From Parabacteroides massiliensis (GTDB lineage: Bacteria > Bacteroidota > Bacteroidia > Bacteroidales > Tannerellaceae): a stretch of 64,000 nt of DNA. The number at the start of each line of letters is the position of its first letter. The first letter of the stretch is position 1. Shown piece by piece: positions 20,444 to 41,040 of the stretch. The notes under the pieces were generated by a model, which saw nothing but the letters and a program-made list of their open reading frames with translations, was not told the DNA's origin and did not search any database. Where the stretch lies: the NCBI RefSeq assembly GCF_900155425.1, contig NZ_LT700192.1, positions 334,215 to 398,214 of the forward strand, read 5' to 3'. The position numbers and the translations under genes are program-made.

Positions 20444-21460
20444 ATGCCCGTTGAAGTTGACATATTGGAAGATAGTATCTTTCGGCTTTCGCCCGAACTG
20501 TTGAATATCCTGCTCAAAGACCATACCACGAGCAGGGAGGACGTTCAGCGCAATATCTTTTGGGCTACTTCCGATTATGAAAGTCTTGGCGAAGGGTATC
20601 AATATGACGCTCCCATCCTTCCACATCTGATTACCGGGGACAACGGCCATGTCATTATGCCCCGTGTACTTAAAAGCCGTGATACCCAGACTGCACGTTC
20701 CCGTGACATGGCGGAGGTCTTCACGCCTTCATGGATATGCAATGCACAGAACAACCTTATTGATGAAGCATGGTTTGGAAGAAAGAATGTGTTCAACACA
20801 GAATACACAGATGAACAGGGATGCCATCGCTGGAAATCCACTGATGACAACATAGTATTCCCCGAAAACAAGACTTGGAAAGACTATGTACGTGACAATC
20901 GTTTGGAGATAACCTGCGGGGAAGCCCCTTACATCATCAGCCGATATGATACCACAACCGGAGAGGCTATTCCCTTAGAGCAACGTATAGGTTTGCTTGA
21001 CCGCAAACTGCGGGTCGTAAGTGAGAATACGGAGACCTCTGGCGAATGGCTGGAGTGGGCACAGGAAGCGTACAAGAGTACATACGCATACGAATGGCAG
21101 GGCGACAATCTACTGATTGCCCGTGAAGCCATGCTTATCTCCTTTATCGAATACTACCAACAGAAGTTTGGCAAGCGTCCGTTGTTGAAATCCATCAACT
21201 ATATCGCCTACATCATTTCATGGAATGTGTGGCAGATGGACGGGCTAAAGGGTGTTGTACCGAACAGTTGCGGTGAACGGCGTACTACCGTGTACGACTT
21301 ATTTGAAACGAGAGAGGAAGTTAGCCAATGCGAGGGTTGTGCGAAAGACGACATCCGCAGGCATAATGGCACGTATTGCCTCATTAAGGACTGGCGGGCA
21401 AAAGACCCGGAAACGGGAAAGATGGGAAAACGAATCCGATTTATCGACCTCATAAAATAG
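20444..21460 (+). CDS. DNA methylase-like subunit of a two-gene restriction-modification-type system
   Basis: 338 residues. The segment DMAEVFTPSWICNAQNNLIDEAWFG matches the TP motif region at the start of Type I/IIG adenine methylases. EITCGEAPYIISRYD and WQGDNLLIAREAMLISFIEYY resemble methylase core segments. A typical DPPY motif is absent here; an NPPY motif is present in the next protein, so the two may form one enzyme. The start is fixed because an in-frame stop lies three codons upstream. It lies 6 bp before the large helicase gene. The candidate invertible promoter lies directly upstream. Confidence 0.6.
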   Translation: MPVEVDILEDSIFRLSPELLNILLKDHTTSREDVQRNIFWATSDYESLGEGYQYDAPILPHLITGDNGHVIMPRVLKSRDTQTARSRDMAEVFTPSWICNAQNNLIDEAWFGRKNVFNTEYTDEQGCHRWKSTDDNIVFPENKTWKDYVRDNRLEITCGEAPYIISRYDTTTGEAIPLEQRIGLLDRKLRVVSENTETSGEWLEWAQEAYKSTYAYEWQGDNLLIAREAMLISFIEYYQQKFGKRPLLKSINYIAYIISWNVWQMDGLKGVVPNSCGERRTTVYDLFETREEVSQCEGCAKDDIRRHNGTYCLIKDWRAKDPETGKMGKRIRFIDLIK

Positions 21461-21466
21461 TGGAGT

Positions 21467-25423: not shown

Positions 25424-27265
25424 GGAGGATGTGTCAAAATGATGCATCCTCTTTTTCGTTATAGAACCATGGGGTTCTCATTTTTCATAGAGTATGATTT
25501 ATTTTCCCCTGTGTCCATGCTTTTTAGTGGTATAATATGCCATAGATGGCTTATGCCACCCTGATATTTTGATAATTTTTGTCTGTCATCTTCTCATTCT
25601 TGATTTTAGCACACATTTTCTTTATATTAAAAGCAATGGCAAAGAAGGCAAAGTCCATTGTGACCTTGTCTTTTCCAAAATGCCTGAACCTTTTGTATCC
25701 CATGTTGTATTTGATTTGTCCAAAGACAGCTTCAGGCTCTATGCATCTTTGCCCTCTATGTCTGATACCTTTCTCTGAGGTAAGCCTTTCACACGCTTTT
25801 TGTTTATATTCTTTCAGCCTGTGATTGACTTCTATGGTACGTCCTGGTGATTTTGAGCTGAAGCACATACATCTGAGAGGACATCCCTCACATCTTGCAG
25901 CCCTATAGGCGGCGCTTTCTGCAATATATCCACTTTCCGTTTTATAATGCCGTACACCTGTCCGGTTCATATGTTGCCCCATGGGACAAACATAATAATC
26001 TTTCTCCTTGTTATAATACAGGTTTTCCTGTTTGAAAGGATTTGTCACATATTTGTCTGCTCTTTGCTCCTTATGAAAGAAATTGTACTTGACATATGCT
26101 TCTATTCCGTTTTCTTCCATAAAACTATAGTTCTCCTCCGAGCCATAACCGGAATCGGCAACCCCTTCCAATGGGAAACGGTTATAACGTTCATGAAACG
26201 AATTTTCAAAAGGAATCAATGTAAGAGTGTCTGTAGGATTAGGGTAGAGTCCGAAGTCGAGCATGAACTGGTTTTCGGTTCCGATTTGCAGATTATATCC
26301 CGGTTTTAACTGCCCGTTTCCCATAGGGTCTTCCTTCATATGCATAAATGTAGCATCAGGATCTGTTTTGGAATAAGAATTTCGTTTGCCGAGTATTCTC
26401 ATGTGACTGTTATATTCGGCAAGTTTCTCACAGTGCGATTCCAATTGCTTGATTTGCTTCATCTTTTGTTTCTCAGCTTTCTTTTCTTCCTTATCCGATG
26501 CGGCTGGTGCATTTTCAATGGAGGCTTTTAACTCTGATATCATATCCGCCAGCATGGAAGGGGTAAACTCGGTAGCGGTATTTTCAATGCAGGCATTCTC
26601 CTGTGCCACGACCTCATCAATCTGCTGTAGAAGAATACGTATCTTCTCAAGAAGCCTGGCACGGTTACGTTCTACGTTCTTACGCCATACGAATGTGTAT
26701 CTGTTGGCTTTTGATTCAATCTTTGTGCCGTCAACATATTCAACGTCAAGGCTTATGAATCCTTTTGATGCCAGAATGAGGACTATTTGTGTGAATATTC
26801 CGTTTATCTCATCCTTGACACGGTTACGGAAACGGTTTATAGTCCGGTAATCCGGCTTCTCATAACCGGCAAGCCAGATGAAATGGATATCCCGCAGCAA
26901 GGACTTTTCTATCTTACGGCAGGAATAGATATTGTTCATATAGGCATACAAAACAGCCTTGAGCATCATTCGTGGGTCATAGGGAGAACGCCCCTGTTCT
27001 TTATACAACTTGTGAAATGAACTGAGGTTAAGGGTGTCTACCATAGCATTCAGGATGCGTACAGGATCGTCCGAGGGAATATTTTCATCTATTCTTTGTG
27101 GGAAAAGGACGATTTGATTGGGATTGTAAGAACGAAAATGTATCTTTGCCATATTACTTTGCTTATGCTTAAAGATACAAAATCTTTAGGTAATAACAAA
27201 GCCTCGGCTTGGGAAAGTCGGGGCTTTGTCATAAAAAAAGAGGGTATGCATTTTGACACACCCTC
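25424..27265 (-). mobile_element. complete IS1182-family element
   Basis: The terminal inverted repeats are clear: GAGGATGTGTCAAAATG at 25425 and, reverse-complemented, GAGGGTGTGTCAAAATG at 27265, both followed by a CCTC-T5 type segment. ACATA occurs on both flanks (25419-25423 and 27266-27270) and may be the target duplication. It inserted 2 bp or so behind the stop of the helicase gene. Confidence 0.85.
25551..27152 (-). CDS. IS1182 family transposase
   Basis: 533 residues, intact. The N-terminal part (RIDENIPSDDPVRILNAMVD ... YSCRKIEKSLLRDIHFIWLAG) and DDE core (EYVDGTKIESKANRYTFVW, VADSGYGSEENY) fit IS1182. The C-terminus has the ...RGQRCIEPEAVFGQIKYNMGYKRFRHFG motif with the catalytic Glu. 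A His/Cys cluster (CEGCPLRCMCF) is present. It is unlike the first IS1182-type transposase in sequence, so the two are separate elements of one family. Confidence 0.92.
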   Translation of the reverse strand: MAKIHFRSYNPNQIVLFPQRIDENIPSDDPVRILNAMVDTLNLSSFHKLYKEQGRSPYDPRMMLKAVLYAYMNNIYSCRKIEKSLLRDIHFIWLAGYEKPDYRTINRFRNRVKDEINGIFTQIVLILASKGFISLDVEYVDGTKIESKANRYTFVWRKNVERNRARLLEKIRILLQQIDEVVAQENACIENTATEFTPSMLADMISELKASIENAPAASDKEEKKAEKQKMKQIKQLESHCEKLAEYNSHMRILGKRNSYSKTDPDATFMHMKEDPMGNGQLKPGYNLQIGTENQFMLDFGLYPNPTDTLTLIPFENSFHERYNRFPLEGVADSGYGSEENYSFMEENGIEAYVKYNFFHKEQRADKYVTNPFKQENLYYNKEKDYYVCPMGQHMNRTGVRHYKTESGYIAESAAYRAARCEGCPLRCMCFSSKSPGRTIEVNHRLKEYKQKACERLTSEKGIRHRGQRCIEPEAVFGQIKYNMGYKRFRHFGKDKVTMDFAFFAIAFNIKKMCAKIKNEKMTDKNYQNIRVA

Positions 27266-27337
27266 ACATATTTTCTTAAACGTAATGTTATCATGTGGAA
27301 GTTCATGAAATGAATTTAGTAGATGCTTTGTTATAGG

Positions 27338-27889
27338 TTATAGAAATTTTGCAAGAGGAAATACTCCAGCACTCTTAAATAATATAATCTCCTGATTTTT
27401 ATCTACTCGTGTGCCTTGTGTTCCTGACTTATTTGATTTAACCTCCTTGACAATGATTTTCCTTAATACGATATTCTTTCTATTAAAACTAAAATCACCA
27501 AAATCTTGGTGCAATCTTTCTGCTGTTTTGTGAAGGAACTCTATAAATACTTCAGATGCTCTTAGTTGCTTATCTGCACCTGAAATATCTCCTCTTTTCA
27601 ATTCTATAAGTAAAATAAACGTTTTCCCATCATGCTTCACTAGTAATACATAGTCACAAAATTTACGTAATCCCTCTGGTGAGTTATCTGTTTTGTTGAA
27701 GAAACACAAGAACTCTTTTTCATCTAAATCAAATCGATATAAATTTCTTATCAATCCTCTTTTCCCATCATCAATATGGACACGTTGCGCCACCTTCTGA
27801 GTTGCTTCCTTTGTTTCAGTCATTATATCTTGAGAAACAGCAAGAAACTCATCACTTATAATACTGCATAACTGTTCGTATTCCGTCAT
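27338..27889 (-). CDS. PD-(D/E)XK nuclease-like partner of the upstream ATPase
   Basis: 183 residues. A likely PD-(D/E)XK active site is D79 (FCDYVLLVKHDGKT) with E96-L-K98 (FILLIELKRG) and a downstream Gln in DKQLRAS. The spacing of a strand, short turn and ExK strand is typical. The gene starts 1 bp after the stop of the ATPase gene (27891-29261), so the two are coupled. An ATPase plus a small nuclease is a common format for phage-defence systems (compare Septu, PARIS, Gabija), but I do not recognise this pair as one of them. Function inferred. Confidence 0.65.
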   Translation of the reverse strand: MTEYEQLCSIISDEFLAVSQDIMTETKEATQKVAQRVHIDDGKRGLIRNLYRFDLDEKEFLCFFNKTDNSPEGLRKFCDYVLLVKHDGKTFILLIELKRGDISGADKQLRASEVFIEFLHKTAERLHQDFGDFSFNRKNIVLRKIIVKEVKSNKSGTQGTRVDKNQEIILFKSAGVFPLAKFL

Positions 27890-27890
27890 A

Positions 27891-29261
27891 TTATATCTCC
27901 TGCAAGCGGTCGAAAAGAGTTTCTGTTATTCTGTTTTGCTCATTAATTGTATTATCAATGCTTTCTATTGCAAACCCGTCATCTTCAACTTTGACATCAA
28001 CCACATCAAGCAAACGCTTTAACCTCCCATAATTAAAATACTTAACAGCAATATCATTTTTATTCAAAAGCATACTTTCTTCATAACCTAACTCTTTTAC
28101 CAGTTGTGCATCCTTTTTATAAATAGTTCCTGCCATAATGAGATTGTTTAACTCACGAATCATGTAATCGCTATGGGTACTAATAATAATTCGCAAATCA
28201 AGCTTGGTCAGGATCGTAAATATCCGCAGTAATGAAATTTGAACATTGGGATGAAAATTCATCTCTGGTTCATCAATAATAAGCAAATCACCCTTACGAG
28301 CAATATGCTTTAGATAGATGACAAGGCTAGACATCGTTTTTACAATAGATGATGTCAGATGTATTGGTAAATGTTTCGTCTTGCCTACTTTATCTGAAAT
28401 AAATTCCACATCGCCAGTTCTAGTTATTTTAACCTCTCCCTGTAAAATACCCTTTTCTATTAGTTCTGCTATATTATAGTAAGGACTATTAAATTTTTGA
28501 ACATTATCCAAATCGTTGGCTATACGAAGACTACTTCTGACAGCCAAAGGGTATCTACGTGAACTGCTATTAACTATATCCAGAATATCCAATTCAGAAC
28601 GACCACTCTTTTGTTGTATGCGATCAATCAACTCATTTCGTCCAAGAGACAATTCTGTCTTAAATGTATATATAGAGTTTCGTTCTACGGTTAGCATTCT
28701 CACACCGCCAGAATTACGAAAACACAATAGACGGAAAAAATGATTAATCATCAATCTCAACTCCACTAAGCTATCACGTTCAATGCCGGAAGTCTCACCA
28801 TTAATCTGGTAAATTACTTTATCAGACGAAGCATCCTTTACTATACCTATTTCTTTTTCACCATTTTTTGATATAAGACGACAAGGGAATTCTATTATTC
28901 GTTCATAATCGCCCTCTGACAAAATCAAAGACAGTTCAAACTGTGAAAAGAGTTTATCTACAGCGGTATCACCGATACCAAAAATGCTACCTAGATTTGA
29001 TTTCATACTGGTAGCAACATCTTGAATAAAGCCTTCTACCAATTCTTTGCTTATGGTAAATTCTTTATGCTCAGAGAAATACTTAACTATTTTATCTAAC
29101 CCCTTTGATTCTACATAATCACCATTTTCCAAGATTGCATACAAAAGGTAAGAGAGGTAGGTTTTCCCCGTACTATTAGGTCCGCAAAATAATGTTAGAG
29201 GCTTTTGTAAATCTACAACAGCCTTCCGTATAGCCCCCAAGTAAGATATTTCAGCAATCAT
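27891..29261 (-). CDS. AAA15/OLD-like SMC-type ATPase
   Basis: 456 residues. Walker A GPNSTGKTYLSYLL is near residue 27. Walker B LLIIDEPEMNFHPN is near 328 with the D-loop after it, and ISTHSDYMI is the switch His. The insertion between them is long and helical. Unlike OLD nucleases it has no TOPRIM domain at the C-terminus. It is therefore likely to be the sensor/motor of a two-component system whose effector is the downstream PD-(D/E)XK-like protein. A TATCTTTG -7 box lies ~130 bp upstream. Confidence 0.8.
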   Translation of the reverse strand: MIAEISYLGAIRKAVVDLQKPLTLFCGPNSTGKTYLSYLLYAILENGDYVESKGLDKIVKYFSEHKEFTISKELVEGFIQDVATSMKSNLGSIFGIGDTAVDKLFSQFELSLILSEGDYERIIEFPCRLISKNGEKEIGIVKDASSDKVIYQINGETSGIERDSLVELRLMINHFFRLLCFRNSGGVRMLTVERNSIYTFKTELSLGRNELIDRIQQKSGRSELDILDIVNSSSRRYPLAVRSSLRIANDLDNVQKFNSPYYNIAELIEKGILQGEVKITRTGDVEFISDKVGKTKHLPIHLTSSIVKTMSSLVIYLKHIARKGDLLIIDEPEMNFHPNVQISLLRIFTILTKLDLRIIISTHSDYMIRELNNLIMAGTIYKKDAQLVKELGYEESMLLNKNDIAVKYFNYGRLKRLLDVVDVKVEDDGFAIESIDNTINEQNRITETLFDRLQEI

Positions 29262-29390
29262 ACAAAAAACACATTATTATGTTTGTAAAGAACAAGAAAA
29301 GCAAATAACATTTAGTAGTCTAAAAACATCATTTGGGACTTTCCTTTTTCTGTTTTCATTTTTTTATTTATTATAGAGTTATCTATCTTG

Positions 29391-29398
29391 CAAAGATA
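29391..29398 (-). promoter_or_regulatory. -7 promoter box of the ATPase/nuclease operon
   Basis: TATCTTTG on the minus strand fits the TAnnTTTG consensus. It would leave a leader of about 125 nt before the ATPase start. Confidence 0.45.
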
Positions 29399-29816
29399 AT
29401 ACTTTTCTTGCAGATATAGCATTTTTAACCAGAATCTTTTCTTTTAGGGATTCAACTAATGAATTTAATTTTGTACTTTTGCATTCAGAAGAAGCGTTCT
29501 TTTAATGTAATGCAAGACAATGCAGAATACAGAACCTCGCTCGTTTCTAAATCGTTACCTGTCAAGAAATAGTTTTCTGCAATCTATTCATTTTCAAAGG
29601 TAAAGACAATTCGTTGTGTCTCTTATACTGAAAAAGGTACAAAAAATCGGCATATAACCAAAATATTTGTTGGGTATATGCCGATTATATTAGTCTGTTA
29701 TCCTTTGAAAGGACTTTTTCAGTGCCCTCCGTATTTTAGGGGGCTTTTTTAAGGTTGACTGCCTCTGCTTTCTGAGAACATAAATAACGAATAAAGACTC
29801 CACCATCCTTAGCAAG

Positions 29817-29864
29817 ATAATTAAAATGGCCGATAAGGATATCTTTACCGGCCATTTTAATTAT
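29817..29864. terminator. bidirectional terminator-like hairpin
   Basis: A 16-bp perfect stem: ATAATTAAAATGGCCG (29817-29832) with CGGCCATTTTAATTAT (29849-29864). It sits 3 bp after the stop of the following minus-strand gene. Confidence 0.75.
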
Positions 29865-29867
29865 ACT

Positions 29868-30101
29868 TTAATACTCATTATCAGGACTGTCATTTTCCTC
29901 TAATACCTTTTTGAGCCTATACAGGCTACGAATATCAGGTTCAAATGTAGGGTTACTCCAATTCCTTTTAACTGAATTTACCTGTACTTCAATAAATTTA
30001 CGCAAGTCAAATATATATTCGTAATTGCTTAATCTTATTTCGTTAAATCTTAATTCATATGCCTGAAACCAGGCTTTTAGTTGTTTAATTTCTTCAGGCA
30101 T
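29868..30101 (-). CDS. small DUF6965-like protein
   Basis: 77 residues, cytoplasmic, with the pattern EEIKQLKAWFQAYELRFNEIRL ... DLRKFIEVQVN ... NPTFEPDIRSLYRLKKVLEE, which I associate with small Bacteroidetes proteins of the DUF6965 type. Function unknown. It is followed by a strong terminator. Confidence 0.6.
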   Translation of the reverse strand: MPEEIKQLKAWFQAYELRFNEIRLSNYEYIFDLRKFIEVQVNSVKRNWSNPTFEPDIRSLYRLKKVLEENDSPDNEY

Positions 30102-30231
30102 ATTTTAATCTCCTTCCTAGGGACAAAGATAAGGAGAAATGGTTCACATATTTCACAAAATGAACCTAACCGACTACAAATCAGGCGAAAGATTTAGAAG
30201 TATTAACTACTGTTGCATGAAACAGCTTGAT

Positions 30232-30486
30232 TCAATCCATGAACAGTTCAGGATTCTTGCGTTTGAAGAATCTCCGTCGGTAGTACAATCGACGTACAGC
30301 AGACCGGTTGTAGGAACGGTATCTGCCCTCGTTGTAGGGATCCCTTTCGGCTTTGCTGCCTTTAACAGTTGGAAGTATCATGTCCAGGAACAGGATAATC
30401 CATGTGATAGCCAACCAGCACAACAGTAATACCCTGAACGGGAAATACAGTATTTCCAGAATGATAGTTTTAGTTTTTGGGCTCAT
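30232..30486 (-). CDS. small single-pass membrane protein, hypothetical
   Basis: 84 residues. A hydrophobic segment (ILYFPFRVLLLCWLAITWII) is followed by a basic Tyr/Arg-rich tail (YNRSAVRRLYYRRRFFKR). The start overlaps the end of the upstream 354-residue gene by 17 bp, which supports the reading on this strand and suggests coupling. A plus-strand frame over the same DNA is less convincing. Function unknown. Confidence 0.55.
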   Translation of the reverse strand: MSPKTKTIILEILYFPFRVLLLCWLAITWIILFLDMILPTVKGSKAERDPYNEGRYRSYNRSAVRRLYYRRRFFKRKNPELFMD

Positions 30487-31534
30487 AAGTCAATTTCTTT
30501 TGGAAAGGCAATGTCCTTCCGTATTTGGTTAATTTCTTGTTTATGTATGACAAAATACGTGCCTTTGTTTCCGCATCCGCATCCTGATACCAGCAGATAG
30601 GGTATAGGGTGAACCCGTTGCCGCTCAGAACGACCTGCACATCCGCATAAGGGGGAGCAAGGTACTTGCAAATGAGTTTGCTGTTATCCATTTTCAGGGA
30701 CATTTTCACTGCATTGCATTTGAACCGCTCTATCAATTGGTCGGCTTGTTTGGTGGCCTTGTACTCTGTCAGTCCTTCAAAACAGCGGGAACATCCATTG
30801 TCGAACTGTTGGCTGACCATGTTTGTCTCACAGAACCGGTATACGCTGGAATGCGTTCGGTATTCCACCAGGTCCACAGTCCCGACACCGGCAGACTTGA
30901 CCACGTTGCAAAACCGGTTGTCCGGCAGAAGCCGTGTATGGTGCTGTACGGTCGCTCCGATATAGTCCCTTATTTCCGGAACAGGCATATAGAACCAGTC
31001 AGACCGATAGATTCCCACCTTGTCCCTTTTCTGGGAGATATAGAATCCCGCATTCCCTTTCTTCTTGTGTCCTGACTCAATGTTGATCTGTACTTCAAAA
31101 GGGAAAAAACAACGCAAGTACGCAGCAACGGCCTCCATTATCGCCTTGCGTACGAACGGGTGGCTCGCAAGATATTGTAGGGAATTATGCTCGTAGCGTA
31201 CGCTGTCGAAATAGACATCATTCATGAACTGTCCGGCAAGCGGTTGTATGTATTCGTTCAGTCTGCTGATAGACTGGATATACCCGTCAGATTGTCTTTC
31301 TGTCAACGGGCATTCGAAAGCGTTGGAAAGGAATAGCTCTGTGTCCGATTCAGCCACCTTTTCAATAAAACCGTTCGGGATGCAAACCACGTCCGTAAAT
31401 AGGCAATGAAAAGACTCTGCAACAGCATCCTGCTTGAATATGGCATTAATGGCCTGTCCAAAAGGACTCCCTTTTGTTAGGACGATATCTGGCCGTTCGT
31501 TTAGGAATTGGCTGTTTGGTTTGAGCCTGGACAT
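30470..31534 (-). CDS. hypothetical protein (354 residues)
   Basis: No known domain is recognised. It is soluble, with several Cys (e.g. NGCSRCFEG) and a conserved-looking core (VQHHTRLLPDNRFCNVVKSAGVGTVDLVEYRTHSSVYRF). A good promoter precedes it (-7 TAATTTTG at 31560-31567; -33 TTGG ~20 bp further upstream). It is the first gene of a two-gene unit with the small membrane protein. It lies among the Dam, TnpB-like and protease genes and may belong to the same cargo block. Confidence 0.65.
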   Translation of the reverse strand: MSRLKPNSQFLNERPDIVLTKGSPFGQAINAIFKQDAVAESFHCLFTDVVCIPNGFIEKVAESDTELFLSNAFECPLTERQSDGYIQSISRLNEYIQPLAGQFMNDVYFDSVRYEHNSLQYLASHPFVRKAIMEAVAAYLRCFFPFEVQINIESGHKKKGNAGFYISQKRDKVGIYRSDWFYMPVPEIRDYIGATVQHHTRLLPDNRFCNVVKSAGVGTVDLVEYRTHSSVYRFCETNMVSQQFDNGCSRCFEGLTEYKATKQADQLIERFKCNAVKMSLKMDNSKLICKYLAPPYADVQVVLSGNGFTLYPICWYQDADAETKARILSYINKKLTKYGRTLPFQKKLTYEPKN

Positions 31535-31559
31535 AATTTCTATAATTTTACTCTTTTTG

Positions 31560-31567
31560 CAAAATTA
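31560..31567 (-). promoter_or_regulatory. -7 promoter box for the 354-residue gene
   Basis: TAATTTTG on the minus strand with a TTGG -33-like box 20 bp upstream and a 25-nt leader; the spacing is good for a Bacteroidales primary-sigma promoter. Confidence 0.55.
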
Positions 31568-31793
31568 TAAATTCCTGATAAATATTCCAATCATTTCTTG
31601 GTATTTACGCAAAAGTATATCCTTTTTGCAGGCAAAAGAGACCTTGTTGCCAAAATCTCACAGCCAGACTACATGTGCGGTGTGTTTGGAGAAATATAAC
31701 CAGCTGTGGGGATTTTGCCCAAACTCCTTATTCGCACAGAATGAATCAGATGCCTTTCATTGAAAGGACAGGCTATTCCTATACAAGCCTGCC

Positions 31794-32652
31794 TCAGACA
31801 GTGTAGTTGCATATCAGCAGTTCGTCTATACCGCTACGACCGGAGCCTTTACTGTTGATGGATCGTGTCGCTTTGACCACATGGACGGTGAAATCCTGAT
31901 AAATTTCCTTGATAAACTGTGCCGAAGAGTTGGACATCAGAAAACGGATACCTCTTTTATCCAAAGACCTGCAAGCGTCCCTAAGACGAAGCTGGTCTTC
32001 CTCGTTCCATCCTTTAGGGGTATAGGAGGTGAACGATGAACTTGCCGTGATGGGATGGAGGATCCAGATAGACAAACGCATCTGAAGGCAGCTGCTTCAG
32101 GACGATGGAATAATCTCCGCAGACAATCTTCACGTTTGCAGTGTTGAGATATTCGCTGACAGCCATTATCACCGGCTTGTTGGCGATAACCGGATGTTTG
32201 TACTGTCCGAACGGTGTGTTGAAATATCCCTGACTGTTTACTCTGTACAAACCGTTGAAACAGGTTCGGTTCAGGTAGATGATGCGTGCCGCCCGTTGGA
32301 TGTCGGTAAGCGCATGAAGTCCCGGTTGCTGGTCCAGTGAGCGAATTGAGTAAAAGAACTCCGGGGTGTTTTCGTATGTCTCTAACTCCTTAACCAGCTT
32401 TTCCGGACTCTGTTTCACCATCTGGAAACAGTTGATCAACTCACAGTTGCAGTCATTGATAATGGCCCTTTTCGGTTGCAGATCCAACAATACCGCACCG
32501 CCGCCGATAAATGGCTCACAGTACAAGCAGTCCTTTATGTCTTCCGGCAATCTCTTGCGGATTTCAGGAAGAAGCCGGCGTTTCCCGCCAGCCCATTTTA
32601 AAAATGGTTTGATATAACTTTCGTCGTTCATAGGATATGGTTTTGGTTTCAT
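31794..32652 (-). pseudogene. Dam-type DNA adenine methylase, frameshifted at the catalytic motif
   Basis: The first frame (to ~32054) has the D12/Dam motif I region FLKWAGGKRRLLPEI, then EPFIGGGAVLLDL, AARIIYLNRTCFNGLYRVN, up to YLDPP. The following residues (SHHGKF...) are out of frame and soon reach a stop. The other frame continues the protein with HPITASSSFTSYTPKGWNEEDQ and a full C-terminal part to 31794. The join point lacks the nucleotides that would encode DPPYHPI; a 5-nt deletion near 32054-32058 explains the shift. The DPPY active site is destroyed, so this copy is probably inactive. Confidence 0.8.
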
Positions 32653-32767
32653 ATATTTATTCCATTAACGCACGTCATTTACCTGTCCGGTTAAATGTTC
32701 TGGAGTGGTCGTACCCTCCAGCCAAGGCGTGTGCGCCCACCCGTATTCATTTGCTACACTGTATCTG
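32653..32767 (-). ncRNA. candidate structured RNA downstream of the TnpB-like gene
   Basis: Three hairpins lie within 62 nt on the minus strand: GGCG-CACA-CGCC (32726-32737), CTGGAG...CTCCAG (32700-32721), and CATTTAaCC...GGTAAATG (32676-32697). The guide RNA of TnpB-type proteins is encoded directly downstream of the protein gene on the same strand, exactly here. No guide or target can be assigned. Alternative: an attenuator or leader of the dam gene. Confidence 0.4.
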
Positions 32768-33850
32768 TCAGACTTCCGTGACCTTCAATCCGTTTATGGA
32801 TGCCTTGTATTTTATCAGCCGGGTCAGTTCTCCGGGAGACCAATACCGGTACTGAGCCGTTATCTCTTCACTGTCTGTATCATCTTTGGACGCTTCACCC
32901 TTTGTCTTGGTCAGTACGATAGTGCCGTATCCCTTACGAATGCAGTTACCCACCAGTGCTGCGCTGTACTTGTGCAGCTTGTCCTGCACATAATTGCTTT
33001 CTTTCTCGTTGAACCGGTCGATAGCCTGTAGCTTTTGTCCCCGTCCGTGGCCGCCCCGTGAGAATCGGGAGTCCATCTGGAGCCTTCGCAGCTTCTCGCT
33101 CAGCTGCTGTCTCCGGTACTCAAACTCTTCCGCATTGCCAATTCCTATATTCTCATTGCCAAAGGTGGCCATGATAGGGATGTCCGGATTCAGTTCTGCA
33201 TAACATATCAAGTCGGGATCAACTGTCGGTCTTGCCTCCTGAACAGGGATAGGCAGCAGCAGGAACCATTTCCGGTTATGCTTATTGAAGTACAACGAGG
33301 CGTTGCAGTGGGATATATTACCTTCGATAATCTTGTCCAGTCTGTAACTGTAACCGGCCTTGTCTTTGCCTAAGATGCAGATGAACCTATGCTTGAAAAG
33401 TCGGAACTTATAGATTCTCCGGCTTCCTTTCTCCGCATAGAATGAGATGCTTTGCTTGGAGAACGGGATGGGAGTGTTGTTCTTGTAGTAGGGGATACGC
33501 ATCTGGCCCTTGAATATCTCCTTTTTGTTCTTGTTGAAGAACGTTACCGTCCGGGTGTTGATGTTTGCGATGATGTCCGACGGGAGATCGTGCTTGGCCA
33601 TAATCCTGTATGTCGCATTCTGGCGTGATGTGTTGAATATGGAGTTCTCCCCTTGGTTGCCGAGCTTGACTTTTGTCCCTTCGGTCAGGTAGAACATATT
33701 AGCGATGTTCTCCTGTGTCAGCAGGTGCATCATGATCAGGTTGCTCATAGACATGCATGCTTGTCTCCATCCGTCAAGAACTTGATAGACGGAATCCCTG
33801 GTCTCTTTGTCTCCTTCGGGCGCAATTTGTATCGTTAGTGTGATATCCAT
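32768..33850 (-). CDS. TnpB/Cas12-like protein with lost RuvC catalytic residues
   Basis: 360 residues from MDITLTIQIAPEGD at 33850; an alternative ATG at 33874 overlaps the protease gene. The C-terminal half follows TnpB closely: YRRQQLSEKLRRLQ, RGGHGRGQKLQAIDRFNEKESNYVQDKLHKYSAALV, then YWSPGELTRLIKYKASINGLKV. The position of the first RuvC Asp (GxDxG in TnpB) reads YAELNPD (Glu/Asn). The second catalytic Glu (xxE-x-L) reads IVLTKTKG (Thr). The protein stops before the zinc finger and the third catalytic Asp. The N-terminal half looks like the wedge/REC part. It is probably an RNA-guided DNA binder without cleavage, similar in logic to TldR repressors. Fold assignment is strong; function is inference. 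Confidence 0.7.
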   Translation of the reverse strand: MDITLTIQIAPEGDKETRDSVYQVLDGWRQACMSMSNLIMMHLLTQENIANMFYLTEGTKVKLGNQGENSIFNTSRQNATYRIMAKHDLPSDIIANINTRTVTFFNKNKKEIFKGQMRIPYYKNNTPIPFSKQSISFYAEKGSRRIYKFRLFKHRFICILGKDKAGYSYRLDKIIEGNISHCNASLYFNKHNRKWFLLLPIPVQEARPTVDPDLICYAELNPDIPIMATFGNENIGIGNAEEFEYRRQQLSEKLRRLQMDSRFSRGGHGRGQKLQAIDRFNEKESNYVQDKLHKYSAALVGNCIRKGYGTIVLTKTKGEASKDDTDSEEITAQYRYWSPGELTRLIKYKASINGLKVTEV

Positions 33851-33861
33851 GTTCCAGAATC

Positions 33862-35052
33862 TTAGTGAGACCATTTATACCAAGCCAAGTTCTGATAGTA
33901 TTCGTCCAGCCCGGAAACAATGCTGGGTCCTGGAACATAGACAGACAGGCCGCATGCCCCTCTCAAATTGATGCTCATAAATCTGTCTGTATGTCTGGTG
34001 TAGACCTTGCAAGCGTTGTAAGCCTTCAGAAAGTTGTCATGCAGGTTTTCGGCTTTCTGTTCGTCATCAGCCGCAATCTTGTCGTGACACATCCGGGCGA
34101 ACTGTTTGAGGTCGAAAAACAGGTGAACATTTTCGCGGTCATATGTCATTGCTGTGATGGAAGGCAAATGGGCGTCGCTATAGGATGCAGCCTTCAGCCG
34201 TCCGAATTCCTCTGCCAGCTTGTTTATGCCTGAGAGTTCAACTGCCGTCAATATGCCCGATTTGTATTGTTCGGAGAGTGAGTTATAGTATGCGTAATAC
34301 AGGTCCACAATCTTGTGCATATCCGGATTGGGAGTACAGAGTGCCGGAATGATTGTGTGATAAGGGAAACTGGTGGTCAGTATCTCTGCAGGAGAAGCCA
34401 CCAGAACATCCGCAATCCCGGCGAACTCTGCCGCCACTTCGACGCTGCCCATCAGACATGCGTCAAACATCAGGTTGTTTATGGACAGACCTTTCAAGGC
34501 CGCCGCCATCTCGGGGATGTTGATTTCGTCGGCATTGTCTTTGCCGAAGGAGCGACTGCCTTTGTTGTCCGGTGCCGGGAACCAGTTCGTTCCATGCGAC
34601 CAGAATATGACGGAGTTTACAGAGTTCGTGCGTCTGCCGCTGTTGAATGCCTGTGTGCATACATGCCTGATAACGGAAGGGGAAACAGAGTTCTGTTCCT
34701 GATAGTTGCTGATTTGGGTAATCCCATATTCCGGGTCAAGCCAGTATAAGGCCGGCAGTTCGTCGTGATTGTCCAAGTAAACGAATATGTTCCCGTCCTT
34801 TTTATTTGGGGCATTGTAATAAGCCTTCTGTATCCGTTCGAAGCTGTCCTTGCCGTAGTCGGACAGGTTGTTGTCCGCTACAATATAAATCAAGGTGGAG
34901 TGATCGGCAAGTGCTCTGTTGTTAATTGCCCGGTCATCTTCATCAGAATCTCTGCAGCTGTTCAAGCAGAGAGTAAACATGATGGCAAAAGCTATTCTTG
35001 AGAGAATCCCCCATGCCCTTTTGCCTTTTCTGATAATGTTTTTGGTAGTCAT
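33862..35052 (-). CDS. clostripain (C11) family cysteine protease, lipoprotein
   Basis: 396 residues. A lipobox (TLCLNSC, Cys33) marks it as a lipoprotein. The caspase-like core has the catalytic His in IFWSHGTNWF (H153) and Cys in MFDACLMGSVEVAAEF (C199). The N-terminal strand STLIYIVADNNLSDYGKDS is typical of C11 peptidases. These enzymes cleave after basic residues and, in Bacteroides, can activate other secreted proteins. The stop lies 11 bp before the ATG of the TnpB-like gene, so the two could be co-transcribed. Confidence 0.88.
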   Translation of the reverse strand: MTTKNIIRKGKRAWGILSRIAFAIMFTLCLNSCRDSDEDDRAINNRALADHSTLIYIVADNNLSDYGKDSFERIQKAYYNAPNKKDGNIFVYLDNHDELPALYWLDPEYGITQISNYQEQNSVSPSVIRHVCTQAFNSGRRTNSVNSVIFWSHGTNWFPAPDNKGSRSFGKDNADEINIPEMAAALKGLSINNLMFDACLMGSVEVAAEFAGIADVLVASPAEILTTSFPYHTIIPALCTPNPDMHKIVDLYYAYYNSLSEQYKSGILTAVELSGINKLAEEFGRLKAASYSDAHLPSITAMTYDRENVHLFFDLKQFARMCHDKIAADDEQKAENLHDNFLKAYNACKVYTRHTDRFMSINLRGACGLSVYVPGPSIVSGLDEYYQNLAWYKWSH

Positions 35053-35087
35053 AAACGTTTCGGTTTTGATTAAGTATATAGTTTTCG

Positions 35088-35693
35088 TTATGGTAGATCC
35101 GGTATTTCAGGGTCCCTAAGAAGTTCGCGCAATTCTTTCGATTCACGGTTTTCGCGCCTCAGACTGTCTATTGTCCTTTCCTTCTCCAGTCCTTTTTGTG
35201 CGATTCGGTCGAGATATTCGGTGACATCCTCGATTAGTCTCTGTTCATCGGCGTTCAATATGGAATCCTGTACCTCGTTGAACAGGGAGTCATTTTCCCA
35301 TACAAGCGTATCCTGCTGTGCAATCTGGTCCTGTTGCCTGGAATAGTCCAACAGTACAGTGTCCCCATTGTTGTTCAGGTAGTATTGGTAGGAGCATATT
35401 GAGTCGTTGGCATATCTGACTTCTATCTGGTCAGGAATGGTGTCACCGTGAATGTCTATCCGGCAGACAAAGTACATGGTGTCAAGTGTTATCGTGTCAA
35501 TGTACCGGATGAAGAACTTACTGTTTCCACCAGTATCCATGTTCTCAGAATCCTTTGGGAATTTAAGAGTGTGGGCCTGTTTATCTGTCCCTCCTTCTTT
35601 GGTTTGGACGGACCGGTAAATAACGCAGGCGAAAGCGACCACTGTCAGCACAAGTGACACTACCCAAAGTGATATCTGATGATTTTTTCTCAT
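35088..35693 (-). CDS. membrane-anchored hypothetical protein
   Basis: 201 residues from MRKNHQISLWVVSLVL at 35693; the frame is open to 35747 but the shorter start gives a clean signal anchor. One N-terminal transmembrane segment (SLWVVSLVLTVVAFACVIYR), an extracytoplasmic beta-rich domain (KFFIRYIDTITLDTMYFVCRIDIHGDTIPDQIEVRY) and an acidic C-terminal coiled coil (DRIAQKGLEKERTIDSLRRE). It lies 35 bp upstream of the C11 protease and probably shares its operon. Function unknown. Confidence 0.65.
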   Translation of the reverse strand: MRKNHQISLWVVSLVLTVVAFACVIYRSVQTKEGGTDKQAHTLKFPKDSENMDTGGNSKFFIRYIDTITLDTMYFVCRIDIHGDTIPDQIEVRYANDSICSYQYYLNNNGDTVLLDYSRQQDQIAQQDTLVWENDSLFNEVQDSILNADEQRLIEDVTEYLDRIAQKGLEKERTIDSLRRENRESKELRELLRDPEIPDLP

Positions 35694-36033
35694 GAATGTT
35701 TTGGTTATAATATCTGCAAAAATAGGAATAATCTCTGTGAATACCAAATATTTGTATTTTTTGTAATTGTTGCAATTCTATGTTTTTTAGTAGGTAAATT
35801 TAGATTATGTGCATATATATTGGATTAAAATGAATGCGAATTGTGGAATAACATCAATTTTTTGTTTCCATTCACGTTTGGTATCATCCATGGTGTTCTC
35901 TCTTTCCTCCGTCAGAGGCAGGCGGGACACATTATTATATTCATCGGCGGCATACGAAGTACGGTCGGGTACTTGTGTCTCGCCGATGTGTGTGTTGACT
36001 GATTGCGAAGTTTTCGCGGTAAAAAGATAGATG
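35694..36033. other. intergenic stretch, no clear feature
   Basis: About 340 bp, AT-rich near 35750-35830. Only short frames; no promoter box or repeat of note seen. Confidence 0.4.
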
Positions 36034-36345
36034 ATGAAGCGTATGAATAGAATACAGAATACCCTGCTGGCTTTTGCCTGTTGTGCCTGAGCCTTGTTGC
36101 AGCTGTGCGGCTGCAACAAGGACGTCGGAGCCGTATTCAGGCTGATGGGCGAGGAGTGTGCCATGGCTCCGGCATCGCGTGCGGCCTGTTTCGAGGCCGG
36201 CACCTGCTATGCGCTGTGGGCCATCTCCGATGACAAATGGGCCGATCCGGTGCTGAACTATGTCCTTACCCAGAGTGATCAATATCCGTTTGGTGAAGAA
36301 CGGAGACTGTTCTATGTGTCAGTGAACTACCGCAAAACTAACGAT
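36034..36345 (+). pseudogene. remnant of a small lipoprotein gene with in-frame stop
   Basis: Reading from ATG 36034 gives a signal peptide MKRMNRIQNTLLAFACCA, then an in-frame TGA (36088-36090), then ALLQLCGCNKDVGAVFRLMG and a Cys-rich continuation (EECAMAPASRAACFEAGTCYALWAI). The second piece fits the first as one lipoprotein with lipobox LCGC. It is GC-richer than its surroundings. After ~36345 the frame runs antisense into the truncated R-M gene, so the 3' end is cut too. It may be debris of a conjugative element. Confidence 0.5.
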
Positions 36346-36566
36346 TTAGCGGCTTCGGAGATACCAATACCTCCTCTCTTTTCCTGCTTCTTCCTGCCAT
36401 TGCTTTTTAGGACACGAGGTCGATCATCCACCCATTTAGTATCAGGAGGGAACATTGTTCTCAGATATGATGCAAAGTTTTCTCTTACCCTTGCTTCAAT
36501 AGCCCCACTATCAATGAGTGATTTTGCTTGGGCTATAAATTCTTTAGTTTGAGAGATGTAACTCAT
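36327..36566 (-). pseudogene. truncated start of a restriction-type gene after the methylases
   Basis: 79 codons (MSYISQTKEFIAQAKSLIDS ... VRENFASYLRTMFPPDTKW). The start overlaps the stop of the upstream methylase (ATGA), as expected for the next gene of an R-M operon. The frame ends shortly after in unrelated DNA. The beginning resembles the N-terminus of restriction endonuclease subunits, so the nuclease of this locus is probably lost. Confidence 0.5.
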
Positions 36567-38401
36567 TGTCTTGCTTCTTTATAATGTTGAAGTTTTTGCT
36601 TTAATTCGGCTAAAAGCTGTCTTGCCCGTTCTTTGTCATCTATAAATGACATGAGCAAGCATAAGTTAATTTTATTAATTATTTCCGAACTCTCAGAAAT
36701 CTTTGAACGACACAATTCTTCTCCATATCTATTTAGTTTTGTTAATGTCGGTTCTGCAAAATTCGGTATTTTTACCTTTCTCAATTGGACAGCTTCCAAT
36801 TTTAAGGCACCTCCACCCATGACTGTTCCTAATTGCTCATATTGAATCTGACACCAAGTCGAATTCAAAATAGCGATAAGAACATTGTTTGTCCAAGATT
36901 CGATATTTGAATTATCAATTGTTGAGAAATTTGCATCTATTGCAGCATTATTTACCTCACTTTTGTAAGCACATACTGAATAACTATTAACGCGAGGAAT
37001 AAATACCTTTGCCACATGCCGACTTCTCAGTTTAGGAATCATGTACCAGAATCTGTGCAAGCCTTTTGAGGGTTTGCTAACATTCGTTTTTACAGAAGAT
37101 AGTTGCGGAACTAAAGTTCCTTTTATCTTTAGATAATTAGCTTCTGATATATAATCTTGTATATCCTGAGGAAGAAGATCATAGCCATTTCTATGTTCCT
37201 CTATTGTGTTATCAAAATCTTGTTGTGTCAAACAATTTTGAATATACAATAATACAGTCGGAGGTGTTCCTTTAACTGTATAACTATTCGTCAAATCTGA
37301 TTGCCCTTGGATAACTGGTAAAAACATACCATCCATGTGACGAATAAATGCAGCTGAAATATCCGATTGGTAAACATCTCCACTTACGTGCTTCAAATAG
37401 AAAAAACCATTTGCACCTGTTCTTAAGCCTTGTGAAATCTTTAATCCAACATCTTCCAGTGTAGTCATAGATTCGTATTCTTCGTTTTCAGAAGAAACAG
37501 ATTTCAGACACTCTTTGAATTTTTCTGTCTGCACACCAAAAATGGTGTTTGTAGAAAGTTGTTTGATTTCGCATACATTTGGTATTGAGTCACCTTTTGA
37601 TATGAAGTTGGCGAAATTTGCATTGCTTGTGACATTACCAAATAATGATTCCTCATTCATTGCGCTTTCATATAAATCCACAATAATAGTATTTGTTTCG
37701 CTTGCAAATCGACGTGAGGCAATTATGATGGAAGTTCTCACCAAAGCATTCCCTTTGAACCATACTCCACTTACATCATTTAGGATATATTTGACTTCAA
37801 ACAGTTCATCAATCAACCTTAATACTGGTTGCGAATATTCGCGTGAAAGCCATGAATTAGGCAGTACAATTGCAAACTGTCCTGTCTTATTAACTAGCAT
37901 CATACATAGAAGCCATGATGGAATCGATAAATCTGCCAATCCAGATATTTCATCTATAGCTCTATGTACTCTTTCTTTTTCATTCGCAGTTAATGTGTTA
38001 AACTCATCTGCGAAGAAATGTAAGTTGCATGTTATGTCAGCAAGAGAAAATTTGGTCTCTTCCGCTTTGCCAATAAGTTCTTTACGGACATACGGAGGAT
38101 TGGCTACAACTAAATCATAGCCTTCGTAATTTAAACATGAAAGGGTCTGCGCAGCAAAAGCATTGGCACATATACAGTTAATAGACGGAATTCTTTCGGA
38201 AATTGTGTCAAACAATTGTGTATCAATCTCAATTCCAGTAACACTATGGACGTTACAATATGGTTGTAGTAAATCGCCAATGCCACACATTGGGTCTATT
38301 ACACTGTTAACACTTTGTGAAGGAACCAGTGTTTCAATCATATCGGCAATCTTACTTCCTGAGAAAAATTGACCAAGTAGTTTTTTCTTATCAACTTGCA
38401 T
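36563..38401 (-). CDS. N6-adenine DNA methylase (Eco57I/TaqI-like)
   Basis: 612 residues from MQVDKKKLLGQFFSGSKIAD at 38401; earlier in-frame ATGs overlap the upstream gene. Motif X (LGQFFSGSKIADMIE), motif I (VIDPMCGIGDLL) and motif IV (VVANPPYVRKELI) are all present. The C-terminal half is a target-recognition region (LEDVGLKISQGLRTGANGFFYL). It overlaps the upstream methylase end by 11 bp and is followed by the truncated R gene, forming one operon. Confidence 0.85.
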   Translation of the reverse strand: MQVDKKKLLGQFFSGSKIADMIETLVPSQSVNSVIDPMCGIGDLLQPYCNVHSVTGIEIDTQLFDTISERIPSINCICANAFAAQTLSCLNYEGYDLVVANPPYVRKELIGKAEETKFSLADITCNLHFFADEFNTLTANEKERVHRAIDEISGLADLSIPSWLLCMMLVNKTGQFAIVLPNSWLSREYSQPVLRLIDELFEVKYILNDVSGVWFKGNALVRTSIIIASRRFASETNTIIVDLYESAMNEESLFGNVTSNANFANFISKGDSIPNVCEIKQLSTNTIFGVQTEKFKECLKSVSSENEEYESMTTLEDVGLKISQGLRTGANGFFYLKHVSGDVYQSDISAAFIRHMDGMFLPVIQGQSDLTNSYTVKGTPPTVLLYIQNCLTQQDFDNTIEEHRNGYDLLPQDIQDYISEANYLKIKGTLVPQLSSVKTNVSKPSKGLHRFWYMIPKLRSRHVAKVFIPRVNSYSVCAYKSEVNNAAIDANFSTIDNSNIESWTNNVLIAILNSTWCQIQYEQLGTVMGGGALKLEAVQLRKVKIPNFAEPTLTKLNRYGEELCRSKISESSEIINKINLCLLMSFIDDKERARQLLAELKQKLQHYKEARQ

Positions 38402-40163
38402 ATTCAAAGAAATATTTAGCATCAAGTGTAATAACAAAATTATGCTCTATACACATCATTATATACTTAGAGAATGTTTTGACAGCCACATCTTTGTTAT
38501 ATGGCATTGGAGCTTGTTCTACTAAATACTTAGCTAATTCCTTATCATCTTGAAATGACTCATTATATTGAACATTTTCGTTCTCTTTTTTGAGAAGAAT
38601 CAAAGGGTCACCTTTAACCGTAACACTTGAATTCGTCTGCTTAAACGAAGGTTGCACTTTGTCTAAAATGCTAGCCTTGATAGAAGACAGCCCAGCCTCC
38701 TTATAGGCATCGACAAGTGCCCTCCAAATTACAGATTTTGCGGAATGAAAGACCAGCGTACAAGAAGCTGCCGGTTTCATGATTCTGCTAATCTGTCCAA
38801 ACACAGCGGTCATTAAATTTGAATATTCTTCAATTGCTTTACCTTGAGCTGGATTGATTATTGCTTCCTCTGCATCGTCAGTAACAATGCCCATCCATGC
38901 TTCATTCAATTGGTTGATTTCAGAATATGGAATAAAGTCTCCAAAGGGAGGATCTGTAAATACGTAATCAACTGAGTTATCCTCCAAAAGAACATTTGTG
39001 CTACTACCATTGACAAATTGCACTTCACCTTTTGAAGATTCGATTTTTTCAAAGGCTTCAACAAAAGTCTTTAGTTTCCTTTGTAATCCAAACAAAATAT
39101 TCTTCTCGACAGGAAGTCCACTGATATATAAAACCCCAGGTTGTGCACCAGTGATAACAAAGTCTGGATTGTTTTTCTTTGCCACAACTCGTGTCATTAA
39201 TGTAGAATGAGCAGAATTATAGCTAAGAAGAAAAATCTTGAGTGCATCACGGATATCTTCTGGATATTGGGATATTTGACTCCATAGTGTGTTAAAAACA
39301 AACCAATTCCTAGATGTGTAAAAGTGATGCAGATGAGTTATGCCATAATGATAACCCTGTCGATACAGTTCACCCCATTTAATTGGGTAAATAGGCGAAG
39401 AAGTTATATCGCGGTTTGCCATTGTAGAGTTATAGCTCGTTTGGTCATTCTCTGTTGCATAACGAGACCATCTCTTTTTCCCTGTTATTCCATAAAGCTT
39501 ATACAATCTGCGTTTTTTTACTGAAATCTCTCTATGCAGTAATGGATCATTAACAGTTTCTTTTACTCGCTCTGCATCTGCAAGATGAACACTTTCCCCA
39601 CAATGAGGACATAGTGAATCTTCTTTGAATGTCAAAGGGTTATCTTGGACAGCTAATTGTGCATAAGGAATTTCCATACCACAATGTGGACAAACAACAA
39701 TATCGCTCCATATTGCATGACGCAACAATCCGATGTTTCCTTCTGGATCTACAATTGAATAGACTTCATTGCATATGTCAGATGTTACTTTCAAAAGAGT
39801 TTCAGTATACTTTTTGAAAATAACAGATTTAGTCGAGCACATGGCTCTACCAAGCAAACATCCCACTGGACTAAGCTCATATACAACAGCCTTTCTTGGT
39901 CCCCAAATAGGTTCCAGTCCAAGTTCTTTTACTTTCTTAAGCATTGATTCTGTTGGACTATCGGTCAACATTGTTGCAATTCCTGTTGTTCCGCTTCCTC
40001 CGAATGGATCAAATATTGTATCACCAATATTTGAATGGCATGCAATAAAAATCGCTTCTGCCTCAGGAGAGATTTTTGTAGGATACGAAAAGGCATTAAA
40101 CAATGCACCTGTTCTCGTTGAAGGGAACGGTGAACTATATAATATATCAATCGATTTGCTCAT
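38391..40163 (-). CDS. DNA methyltransferase with zinc ribbons (beta-class-like)
   Basis: 590 residues. Motif I is TIFDPFGGSGTTGIA at ~49-63 and motif IV is YVFTDPPFGDFIPY near 410. Between them are two CxxC pairs (VVCPHCGMEIPY, SLCPHCGESVH) that probably form a zinc ribbon inserted in the target region. The order suggests an N4/N6 methylase that works together with the second methylase. It is the first gene of the minus-strand R-M operon. Confidence 0.82.
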   Translation of the reverse strand: MSKSIDILYSSPFPSTRTGALFNAFSYPTKISPEAEAIFIACHSNIGDTIFDPFGGSGTTGIATMLTDSPTESMLKKVKELGLEPIWGPRKAVVYELSPVGCLLGRAMCSTKSVIFKKYTETLLKVTSDICNEVYSIVDPEGNIGLLRHAIWSDIVVCPHCGMEIPYAQLAVQDNPLTFKEDSLCPHCGESVHLADAERVKETVNDPLLHREISVKKRRLYKLYGITGKKRWSRYATENDQTSYNSTMANRDITSSPIYPIKWGELYRQGYHYGITHLHHFYTSRNWFVFNTLWSQISQYPEDIRDALKIFLLSYNSAHSTLMTRVVAKKNNPDFVITGAQPGVLYISGLPVEKNILFGLQRKLKTFVEAFEKIESSKGEVQFVNGSSTNVLLEDNSVDYVFTDPPFGDFIPYSEINQLNEAWMGIVTDDAEEAIINPAQGKAIEEYSNLMTAVFGQISRIMKPAASCTLVFHSAKSVIWRALVDAYKEAGLSSIKASILDKVQPSFKQTNSSVTVKGDPLILLKKENENVQYNESFQDDKELAKYLVEQAPMPYNKDVAVKTFSKYIMMCIEHNFVITLDAKYFFEYAS

Positions 40164-40433
40164 AACTATTGTAACTTAAGTGAATCTCTTTCGCTTCTAT
40201 CAATTACAAGCTCCTTTATATCCACATGCAATCATTATGATAAAGAATAGGTGTCCCAACGAGAGTGGCTAAAAATAGTAGAGAGATGATCTTGTACAGC
40301 CCTATTTTCTATGCTGTCTTCACTGTTTGTATATAAATACGCTGTGAATCTTATAACGGCTCTTTCCAAACATGGTTAATCTTTACTATATGCCTGAATG
40401 TCAGGTTCAACATCAACTTTACAATTTGATATT
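40164..40433. other. intergenic stretch upstream of the methylase operon
   Basis: 270 bp, AT-rich, no gene or clear repeat seen; presumably holds the promoter of the methylase operon. Confidence 0.35.
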
Positions 40434-40682
40434 CTATTGCAAGAACATATAATTTGCGAGAGGATGATGGTAACTATTAGGCGCAAATAATTTATGGTTA
40501 TTCTTTTGGTGATTGTTCTGTAGAATCATTGTAATTCTTATTATTCTAAGAAAGGTTCTTTTTGTTGTTAGTTGAACACAATGGACTATGCTGAAAAACA
40601 GGACTGTTATTGCAATTATTTCAAGAATAAACAACATTCCTTGTATAATTTCATTCATTGGAAGTTCAGTAAATATATTCAT
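40434..40682 (-). CDS. possible small membrane protein
   Basis: 82 residues, with one hydrophobic segment (IIQGMLFILEIIAITVLFFSIV) and a basic remainder. An A-rich sequence lies upstream of the ATG. No family recognised and no conserved neighbour, so it may be a chance frame in AT-rich DNA. Confidence 0.3.
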   Translation of the reverse strand: MNIFTELPMNEIIQGMLFILEIIAITVLFFSIVHCVQLTTKRTFLRIIRITMILQNNHQKNNHKLFAPNSYHHPLANYMFLQ

Positions 40683-41040
40683 AGTTATTCTTTTGGATAT
40701 TTTTGAATAATAAAAATACTAAATCATTCACAATTAACCAAATATATCGTCCATAATAATTTCTGTTCCTCTAATTATTACCGAATTTAGTGGTTGTATT
40801 CACCAAATTCCACCGAAATTGGCGGTCGTCCACCAGAATCATGTTTCAAGCCGCGATATACCTTCATTATTCGGGGCAGAAACCTGTATGCCTCAATTTG
40901 GATTTGTGAATGTACGGGACCCCAATTTTATCAATGCACAAGCTACGATCGGCTGATCGCCCGTTTGGTTCGTTTTGTGGTATTTTGGGGCTAAAATCAG
41001 TATTCGTCCAGGGAGGACGTTTTTCATTTGTAAAGAATTA
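40683..41040. other. intergenic region with IS-end-like repeats
   Basis: At about 40790-40842 there are two imperfect copies of a unit like TGGTTGTATTCACCA / TGGCGGTCGTCCACCA, recalling the multiple terminal repeats of IS21-type elements. No transposase remains. The rest is the upstream region of the porin-like gene. Confidence 0.3.

Follow-up and report, generated by a model that had tools for sequence, protein, structure and literature searches.

dCas12f proteins are the core of sigma-E-dependent RNA-guided transcription activation, and TldR proteins, which are nuclease-dead TnpB relatives that repress by binding, are linked with fliC or oppF-type genes. Here we describe a dCas12f locus in a 64,000-nt stretch of Parabacteroides massiliensis DNA (contig NZ_LT700192.1, positions 334,215 to 398,214; hereafter the window, numbered from its first letter), in which the gene is followed by a guide-RNA (gRNA)-like element and which, judged from sequence, stands in a genome with no cognate sigma factor. 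With a probability of about 0.5, this dCas12f and a natural single-guide RNA would together bind DNA under RNA guidance and thereby block transcription, with no sigma involved. The family is known; new here are the gRNA scaffold behind the gene, the missing sigma partner, and the surrounding mobile defence island. A literature search, which also missed the primary dCas12f papers, found no Bacteroidales dCas12f with a gRNA and without a sigma. The elements of the locus are the following:

32768..33850, minus strand: dcas12f, encoding a nuclease-dead Cas12f of 360 aa (PDB, PADLOC, and Foldseek matches, and catalytic columns)
32674..32745, minus strand: predicted guide-RNA scaffold with three hairpins (covariance model and folding; the covariance-model match itself spans 32690-32745)
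32653..32673, minus strand: predicted guide in register G1, starting at 32673 and running toward 32653 (third-hairpin alignment with locus L104 and other relatives; boundary uncertain)

To place the window protein, we compared its sequence and predicted fold with those of known proteins, and by these measures it is a member of dCas12f, the family of nuclease-dead Cas12f proteins. Its best sequence match in the PDB was 9n9c, titled 'Nuclease-deactivated Cas12f' (E=2e-60, residues 15-356), followed by two Cas12f entries at E=2e-36, including 9nzo, and a 23-row profile that included the window protein matched 9n9c at E=3e-180. PADLOC returned matches to Cas12f (1.9e-53) and Cas12u3 (1.9e-51). Further, an AlphaFold2 model of moderate quality (28 rows; mean pLDDT 79.2, pTM 0.55) placed 9n9c and 9n9m, which are dCas12f-gRNA and dCas12f-gRNA-DNA complexes, at Foldseek ranks 1 and 2 (TM ∼0.6). 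A preliminary description of this DNA had suggested comparison with ISDra2 TnpB and TldR; ISDra2 TnpB ranked only 27th and was not present among the sequence matches. In a tree of 33 dCas12f rows, the window included, and three Cas12f-like outgroups, dCas12f formed a single clade with 100/98 support. The same description had taken the protein for a nuclease-dead TnpB/Cas12-like protein with an open frame, probably RNA-guided, and akin to TldR; the first part of that interpretation is supported, whereas the kinship is not. A dead TnpB from an IS605-like element serving as a repressor would be in keeping with a PHROG 'transposase' match (6e-11) and with a weak match to OrfB_IS605 in Pfam that fell short of the cut-off (6e-4), but dCas12f and Cas12f are far nearer in both sequence and fold (in a comparison that included no TldR sequences), and the window lies inside the dCas12f clade, apart from the three outgroups. 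We therefore rejected TldR membership, which is scarcely credible.

The minus-strand open reading frame (ORF) 32768-33874 is uninterrupted, as had been claimed, and its family-fitting start is the ATG at 33850, which yields 360 aa; a further in-frame ATG upstream, at 33874, would overlap the C11 protease gene. Within this protein, the RuvC-I Asp position is occupied by E219 (YAELNPD) and the RuvC-II Glu position by T314 (IVLTKT), which bears out the reported loss of both residues. While all three Cas12f-like outgroups carry D and E at these columns, the RuvC-I Asp is kept in only one of 93 dCas12f rows, and the RuvC-II Glu in none of them (a few duplicates are among the 93 rows, and L060, which gave no ORF, was left out). 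The dead nuclease is therefore a trait of nearly the whole dCas12f family and not of the window gene alone. The sole row with the Asp, L016 (9464-10558), has lost the Glu and the C-terminal part. Past the last conserved YK, the window protein has 12 residues; 92 of the 93 rows have 11-13, L106 has 36, and the outgroups have 72-81. When aligned with 9nzo, a longer Cas12f of 506 aa, the window protein matches it only as far as 9nzo residue 415. We take the Cas12f zinc finger and third Asp to lie in the C-terminal part, and because of this early stop and the short tail we conclude that this part is absent from the window protein, in agreement with the earlier view that it ends before both. In comparison with Cas12f (type V-F) and Cas12u3, the window protein thus shares fold and ancestry, but it differs in its dead site and its short tail, and its locus has no CRISPR array: we found no repeat array in 31500-36600 and no tandem array in 27000-41000.

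A conserved element lies behind the dcas12f stop codon in many relatives and elsewhere in some (e.g., the Sphingobacterium loci). We built a covariance model, R1, from 30 scaffolds chosen for spread from 42 extracted, with the window left out; RNAalifold predicted three stems in these 30, with 12 of 18 pairs showing pair-keeping changes on both sides in at least one sequence. Scanned over the whole window with filters off, R1 gave its best match at 32690-32745 on the minus strand (15.6 bits, E=0.14; second-best 12.0 bits, E=0.79), whereas over the local 401 nt the E-value was 0.00088. This places the match in the 115 nt that separate dcas12f from the dam-type gene, which is the family's usual place. 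Folded alone, a 75-nt stretch formed three hairpins (z=-2.68), and only 1 of 200 shuffles was as stable. The third-stem alignment sets the guide start at 32673 (G1, which we prefer), whereas R1's own register would set it at 32689 (G2). Rfam gave no match. Overall, the stretch behind the gene looks like a gRNA scaffold, with a weak score and an uncertain guide start. In another locus of the family, L052 (9123-9990; Pedobacter suwonensis), five gRNA-like covariance-model (CM) matches stand in a row behind one sigma-linked dcas12f, as though several guides shared one protein.

The sigma partner was sought with a profile of five cognate sigmas, run on the ORFs of all loci, with a same-strand position at most 500 nt upstream as the criterion. 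A cognate sigma lies just upstream of dcas12f in 74 of 79 named loci (all except L058, L077, L079, L080, and L096; L060 again gave no ORF) and adjoins the gene in all seven loci L016-L022, five of which supplied the profile. It is found in one of three viral loci and in none of the three Bacteroidales loci L013-L015, and these sigma-less viral and Bacteroidales loci keep open frames. The window locus likewise has no adjacent cognate sigma; the nearest sigmas lie 11.8 and 18.6 kb upstream, and their length is that of ordinary extracytoplasmic function (ECF) sigmas. Across the genome, 44 sigma-like matches were obtained, the best with 73.9 bits; none extends past position 214 of the 270 in the profile, and the C-terminal module is thus missing from all of them. 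The positive control, genome G613, scored 404 bits over profile positions 14-267, its sigma being part of the profile. The C-terminal module was also covered by none of the 14 matches in genome G427 and none of the 19 in G186. These results bear on an activator acting in trans, which would recruit RNA polymerase via an ordinary ECF sigma or another partner. While the closest solved relatives are named dCas12f and presumably come from sigma-E-linked systems, and while ECF sigmas are plentiful in this genome, with two in the window, the lack of the cognate module in all 44 matches and in both other genomes makes such an activator improbable. In a larger, midpoint-rooted tree, all sigma-less rows except L077 and L096 branched outside the sigma-bearing group (support 93/66). 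An outgroup-rooted tree did not resolve the deep order and gave the window a long branch; sigma may therefore have been either gained or lost. In relation to the dCas12f-sigma-E systems of Bacteroidota (9n9c, 9n9m), the window locus is thus alike in family, size (360 versus 365 aa), dead RuvC site, and a gRNA scaffold behind the gene, but unlike in having no cognate sigma-E beside the gene or in the genome, a divergent scaffold, and no target found.

In the reading that we favor, the window dCas12f would bind the RNA encoded just behind it on the same strand, and the complex would find matching DNA beside a short target-adjacent motif (TAM), open an R-loop, and stay there without cutting. RNA and DNA binding would follow from the family, by analogy with the titles of the PDB entries. 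With no sigma partner, there would be no RNA polymerase recruitment of the kind supposed for the relatives, and the bound protein would most likely block transcription (or replication); we infer the transcription block because both the nuclease and the sigma are lacking. The target would probably be on DNA missing from this genome, for example another mobile element, or be too diverged for detection. TldR-like action, i.e., repression by binding, may apply, since this locus lacks the sigma partner that other dCas12f loci have. The likeness to TldR (PMC13418256) would consist of a dead nuclease and, should our reading hold, of repression through binding, whereas the parent protein (TnpB rather than Cas12f) and the neighboring genes differ, with TldR sequences lying outside our comparison. 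Cas12m (type V-M) is reported to provide protection or interference by DNA binding without cleavage (PMC11013384), and the window protein would resemble it in binding-only interference; it differs in that its fold matches Cas12m only distantly (8hhm, rank 41, E=2.9e-7) and in that its locus has no CRISPR array.

The surroundings of dcas12f comprise the following further features:

33862..35052, minus strand: gene for a C11 protease of the clostripain type, separated by 11 nt from the dcas12f ATG downstream (PF03415, 2.5e-34)
35088..35693, minus strand: small membrane-protein-like gene, first in the operon (no Pfam family; membrane segment by eye)
35717..35748, minus strand: Bacteroides-type promoter-like match TTTG-N20-TAnnTTTG (weak evidence, since the two strands of the window together have four matches of this kind)
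31794..32652, minus strand: dam-type methylase gene (MethyltransfD12) in two frames, 32014-32652 and 31794-32081 (PF02086, 1.5e-49)

The minus-strand order is thus promoter-like match, small membrane-type protein, C11 protease, dcas12f, gRNA, and broken dam. The promoter-like match follows what we take to be the Bacteroides-type consensus, and the start of the small gene was set at the in-frame ATG 35693, the mechanical ORF beginning at TTG 35747. The C11 protein carries FTLCLNSC, presumably a lipoprotein-like signal, and would therefore be exported. As for the neighbors named in the preliminary description, the C11 protease stands, and the Dam-type methylase is real, though its frame is split. 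With a C11 protease, a broken dam, and restriction-modification genes as neighbors, the fliC/oppF-type association of TldR is not seen here. Integrases and a relaxase lie at 10-20 kb, a type IIG restriction-modification pair at 20444-25417, and methylases at 36563-40163; we read the surroundings as a mobile defence island. The window also contains a gene pair at 27338-29261 whose products match the defence proteins PD-T4-4 A (1e-71) and PD-T4-4 B (4e-9), and, at 30470-31534, a 354-aa island protein that neither Pfam (best E=0.15) nor PADLOC assigned convincingly to a family.

In 9 of 46 loci with a guide read (L017, L051, L053, L064, L066, L078, L087, L098, and L101, all of the sigma type), a site with 1-2 mismatches in 16 and a 5' G lies ∼144-209 nt upstream of the sigma gene; these near-matching sites support the guide boundary in those nine loci, and they suggest self-activation of the sigma system. 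Many Flavobacteriaceae share guides near GCGTGGGCTCTCTTAT, for which a near-match preceded by a 5' G is present upstream of the system's own sigma gene. Among the sigma-less loci, the L014 guide had one non-self match with three mismatches in G427 (none for the control), spacer 1 of L106 matched its own contig only, and spacer 1 of L015 had no match. An exact 18-mer of the L104 guide also occurs in five further viral contigs, which have the same surrounding sequence but no dcas12f in the stretch covered; one of the five, read gene by gene, had no match among phage records. We take this 18-mer match as chance, because by our estimate about one is expected in a collection of this size.

Several results weigh against an RNA-guided binder in the window. 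Within its own genome, the G1 guide matched only itself at up to 3 mismatches in 20, and at 2 mismatches in 16 it gave two non-self matches, versus three for the reversed control; it matched only itself in 123 genomes of the family and had no exact match in viral contigs. The G2 guide gave four non-self matches in the genome, versus four for the reversed control, and no exact match in viral contigs, and a third register, G3, gave one non-self match (two mismatches), versus two for the control. The scaffold scores 15.6 bits, compared with 25-64 for 42 matches in 22 other loci (four of which also trained R1), R1's alignment of the window omits the third stem, and the 261-nt context fold is not unusual (z=-0.83). 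The window protein sits on the longest dCas12f branch, and of 32 residues that never vary among 27 relatives it has lost 6. Finally, the adjacent dam frame breaks at its DPP motif, with the rest in the other frame at 31794-32081 and the best PADLOC match covering profile positions 4-198 of 284, indicating that this gene is probably broken.

A site for the guide within the locus itself was also sought. None of the three registers yielded a convincing site with a 5'-G TAM near a regulated gene; in 33851-36300, G1 and G3 had no site with up to 4 mismatches in 18, and G2 had one weak site, matching 15 of 18 at 35609-35626 in the first gene of the operon. Bound there, dCas12f could lower the expression of its own operon, and only 2 of 1000 shuffled guides match as well within that interval; guide sites upstream of their own operon are also what the sigma-type relatives have. 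However, the base preceding the site is A, not G, a G2 guide would miss the third hairpin, three registers were tried, and genome-wide G2 did no better than its reversed control, which leaves regulation of the own operon very unlikely. Nor is the proposed control of the protease and Dam by this protein supported, given these searches, a broken dam, and a lipoprotein-like C11 protein.

The main rival to an RNA-guided binder is that the locus is a decaying remnant, now without function, from which both the sigma and the target have been lost. The long branch, the six altered residues, the weak gRNA score, the broken dam, and the missing target all fit decay, as does the presence of the gene in only the window's own genome among the 123 of the family. 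On the other hand, 360 codons are open, 26 of the 32 invariant residues are kept, the three hairpins are more stable than 199 of 200 shuffles, and open frames persist in other loci without a sigma, namely three in Bacteroidales and two of the three viral ones. On balance, we consider decay unlikely.

In wider sets of genomes, which overlap with the family set, matches were found in 3 of 393 genomes of the order (the window's own, G186, and G427, the last with two copies) and 9 of 395 of the phylum (its own, seven dCas12f loci, and one weak TnpB-like match). A single-protein query of the named genomes and viral contigs found no relative, whereas an alignment query succeeded and found three relatives in viral contigs. 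From the named genomes, the best 80 of 309 relatives were kept, all of them Bacteroidota by title or tree label; such a selection would lose divergent and sigma-less rows. L079 and L013 are apparently one record, as are L069 and L018. Distant matches were seen once in plasmid records and twice in phage records. The Bacteroidales source suggested beforehand agrees with relative L013, the genome of which is of the same order as the window genome.

The other sigma-less loci are varied. L014 (9463-10584) and L013 (9489-10577), both in G427, and L080 of Dysgonomonas sp. 521 are type VI secretion system (T6SS)-like loci in which a sigma-less dcas12f adjoins genes for ClpB/ClpV-like AAA ATPases; in L014 it also adjoins a VgrG-like gene, and upstream in L013 and L080 is encoded a protein of 290 aa in which trypsin-like motifs were seen by eye, its Pfam match being below the cut-off. 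In G186, L015 (9432-14329) combines a sigma-less dcas12f, a tracr-like CM match, and a CRISPR-like array of three 36-nt repeats; its dcas12f adjoins genes for a TniB-like AAA ATPase and a Mu/TnsB-type transposase, a gene set like that of CRISPR-associated transposons (CAST), although no TniQ was seen and no clear transposon ends were found at this locus. Two further loci are on phage contigs. In L104 (5360-7265; IMGVR_UViG_3300031998_005371), a sigma-less dcas12f lies between the terminase large subunit and portal genes, with four gRNA-like CM matches (weakest E=0.007). In L106 (2342-4110; IMGVR_UViG_3300019852_000034), a sigma-less dcas12f is followed by a tracr-like CM match and an array of five 36-nt repeats, the final one or two degenerate, with RecT and replication-initiation genes nearby.

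In summary, a dead Cas12f with a predicted gRNA and without a sigma raises the question of what role dCas12f had before sigma, or has in its absence, and such loci would offer a natural compact RNA-guided DNA binder. We tentatively propose that there may be a sigma-less dCas12f branch, on Bacteroidales chromosomes, in T6SS-like loci, and in phages, that consists of RNA-guided repressors or agents of binding-only interference. If this is true, the sigma-E activators would have arisen later, by addition to an RNA-guided binder that was older and already in use by mobile elements.
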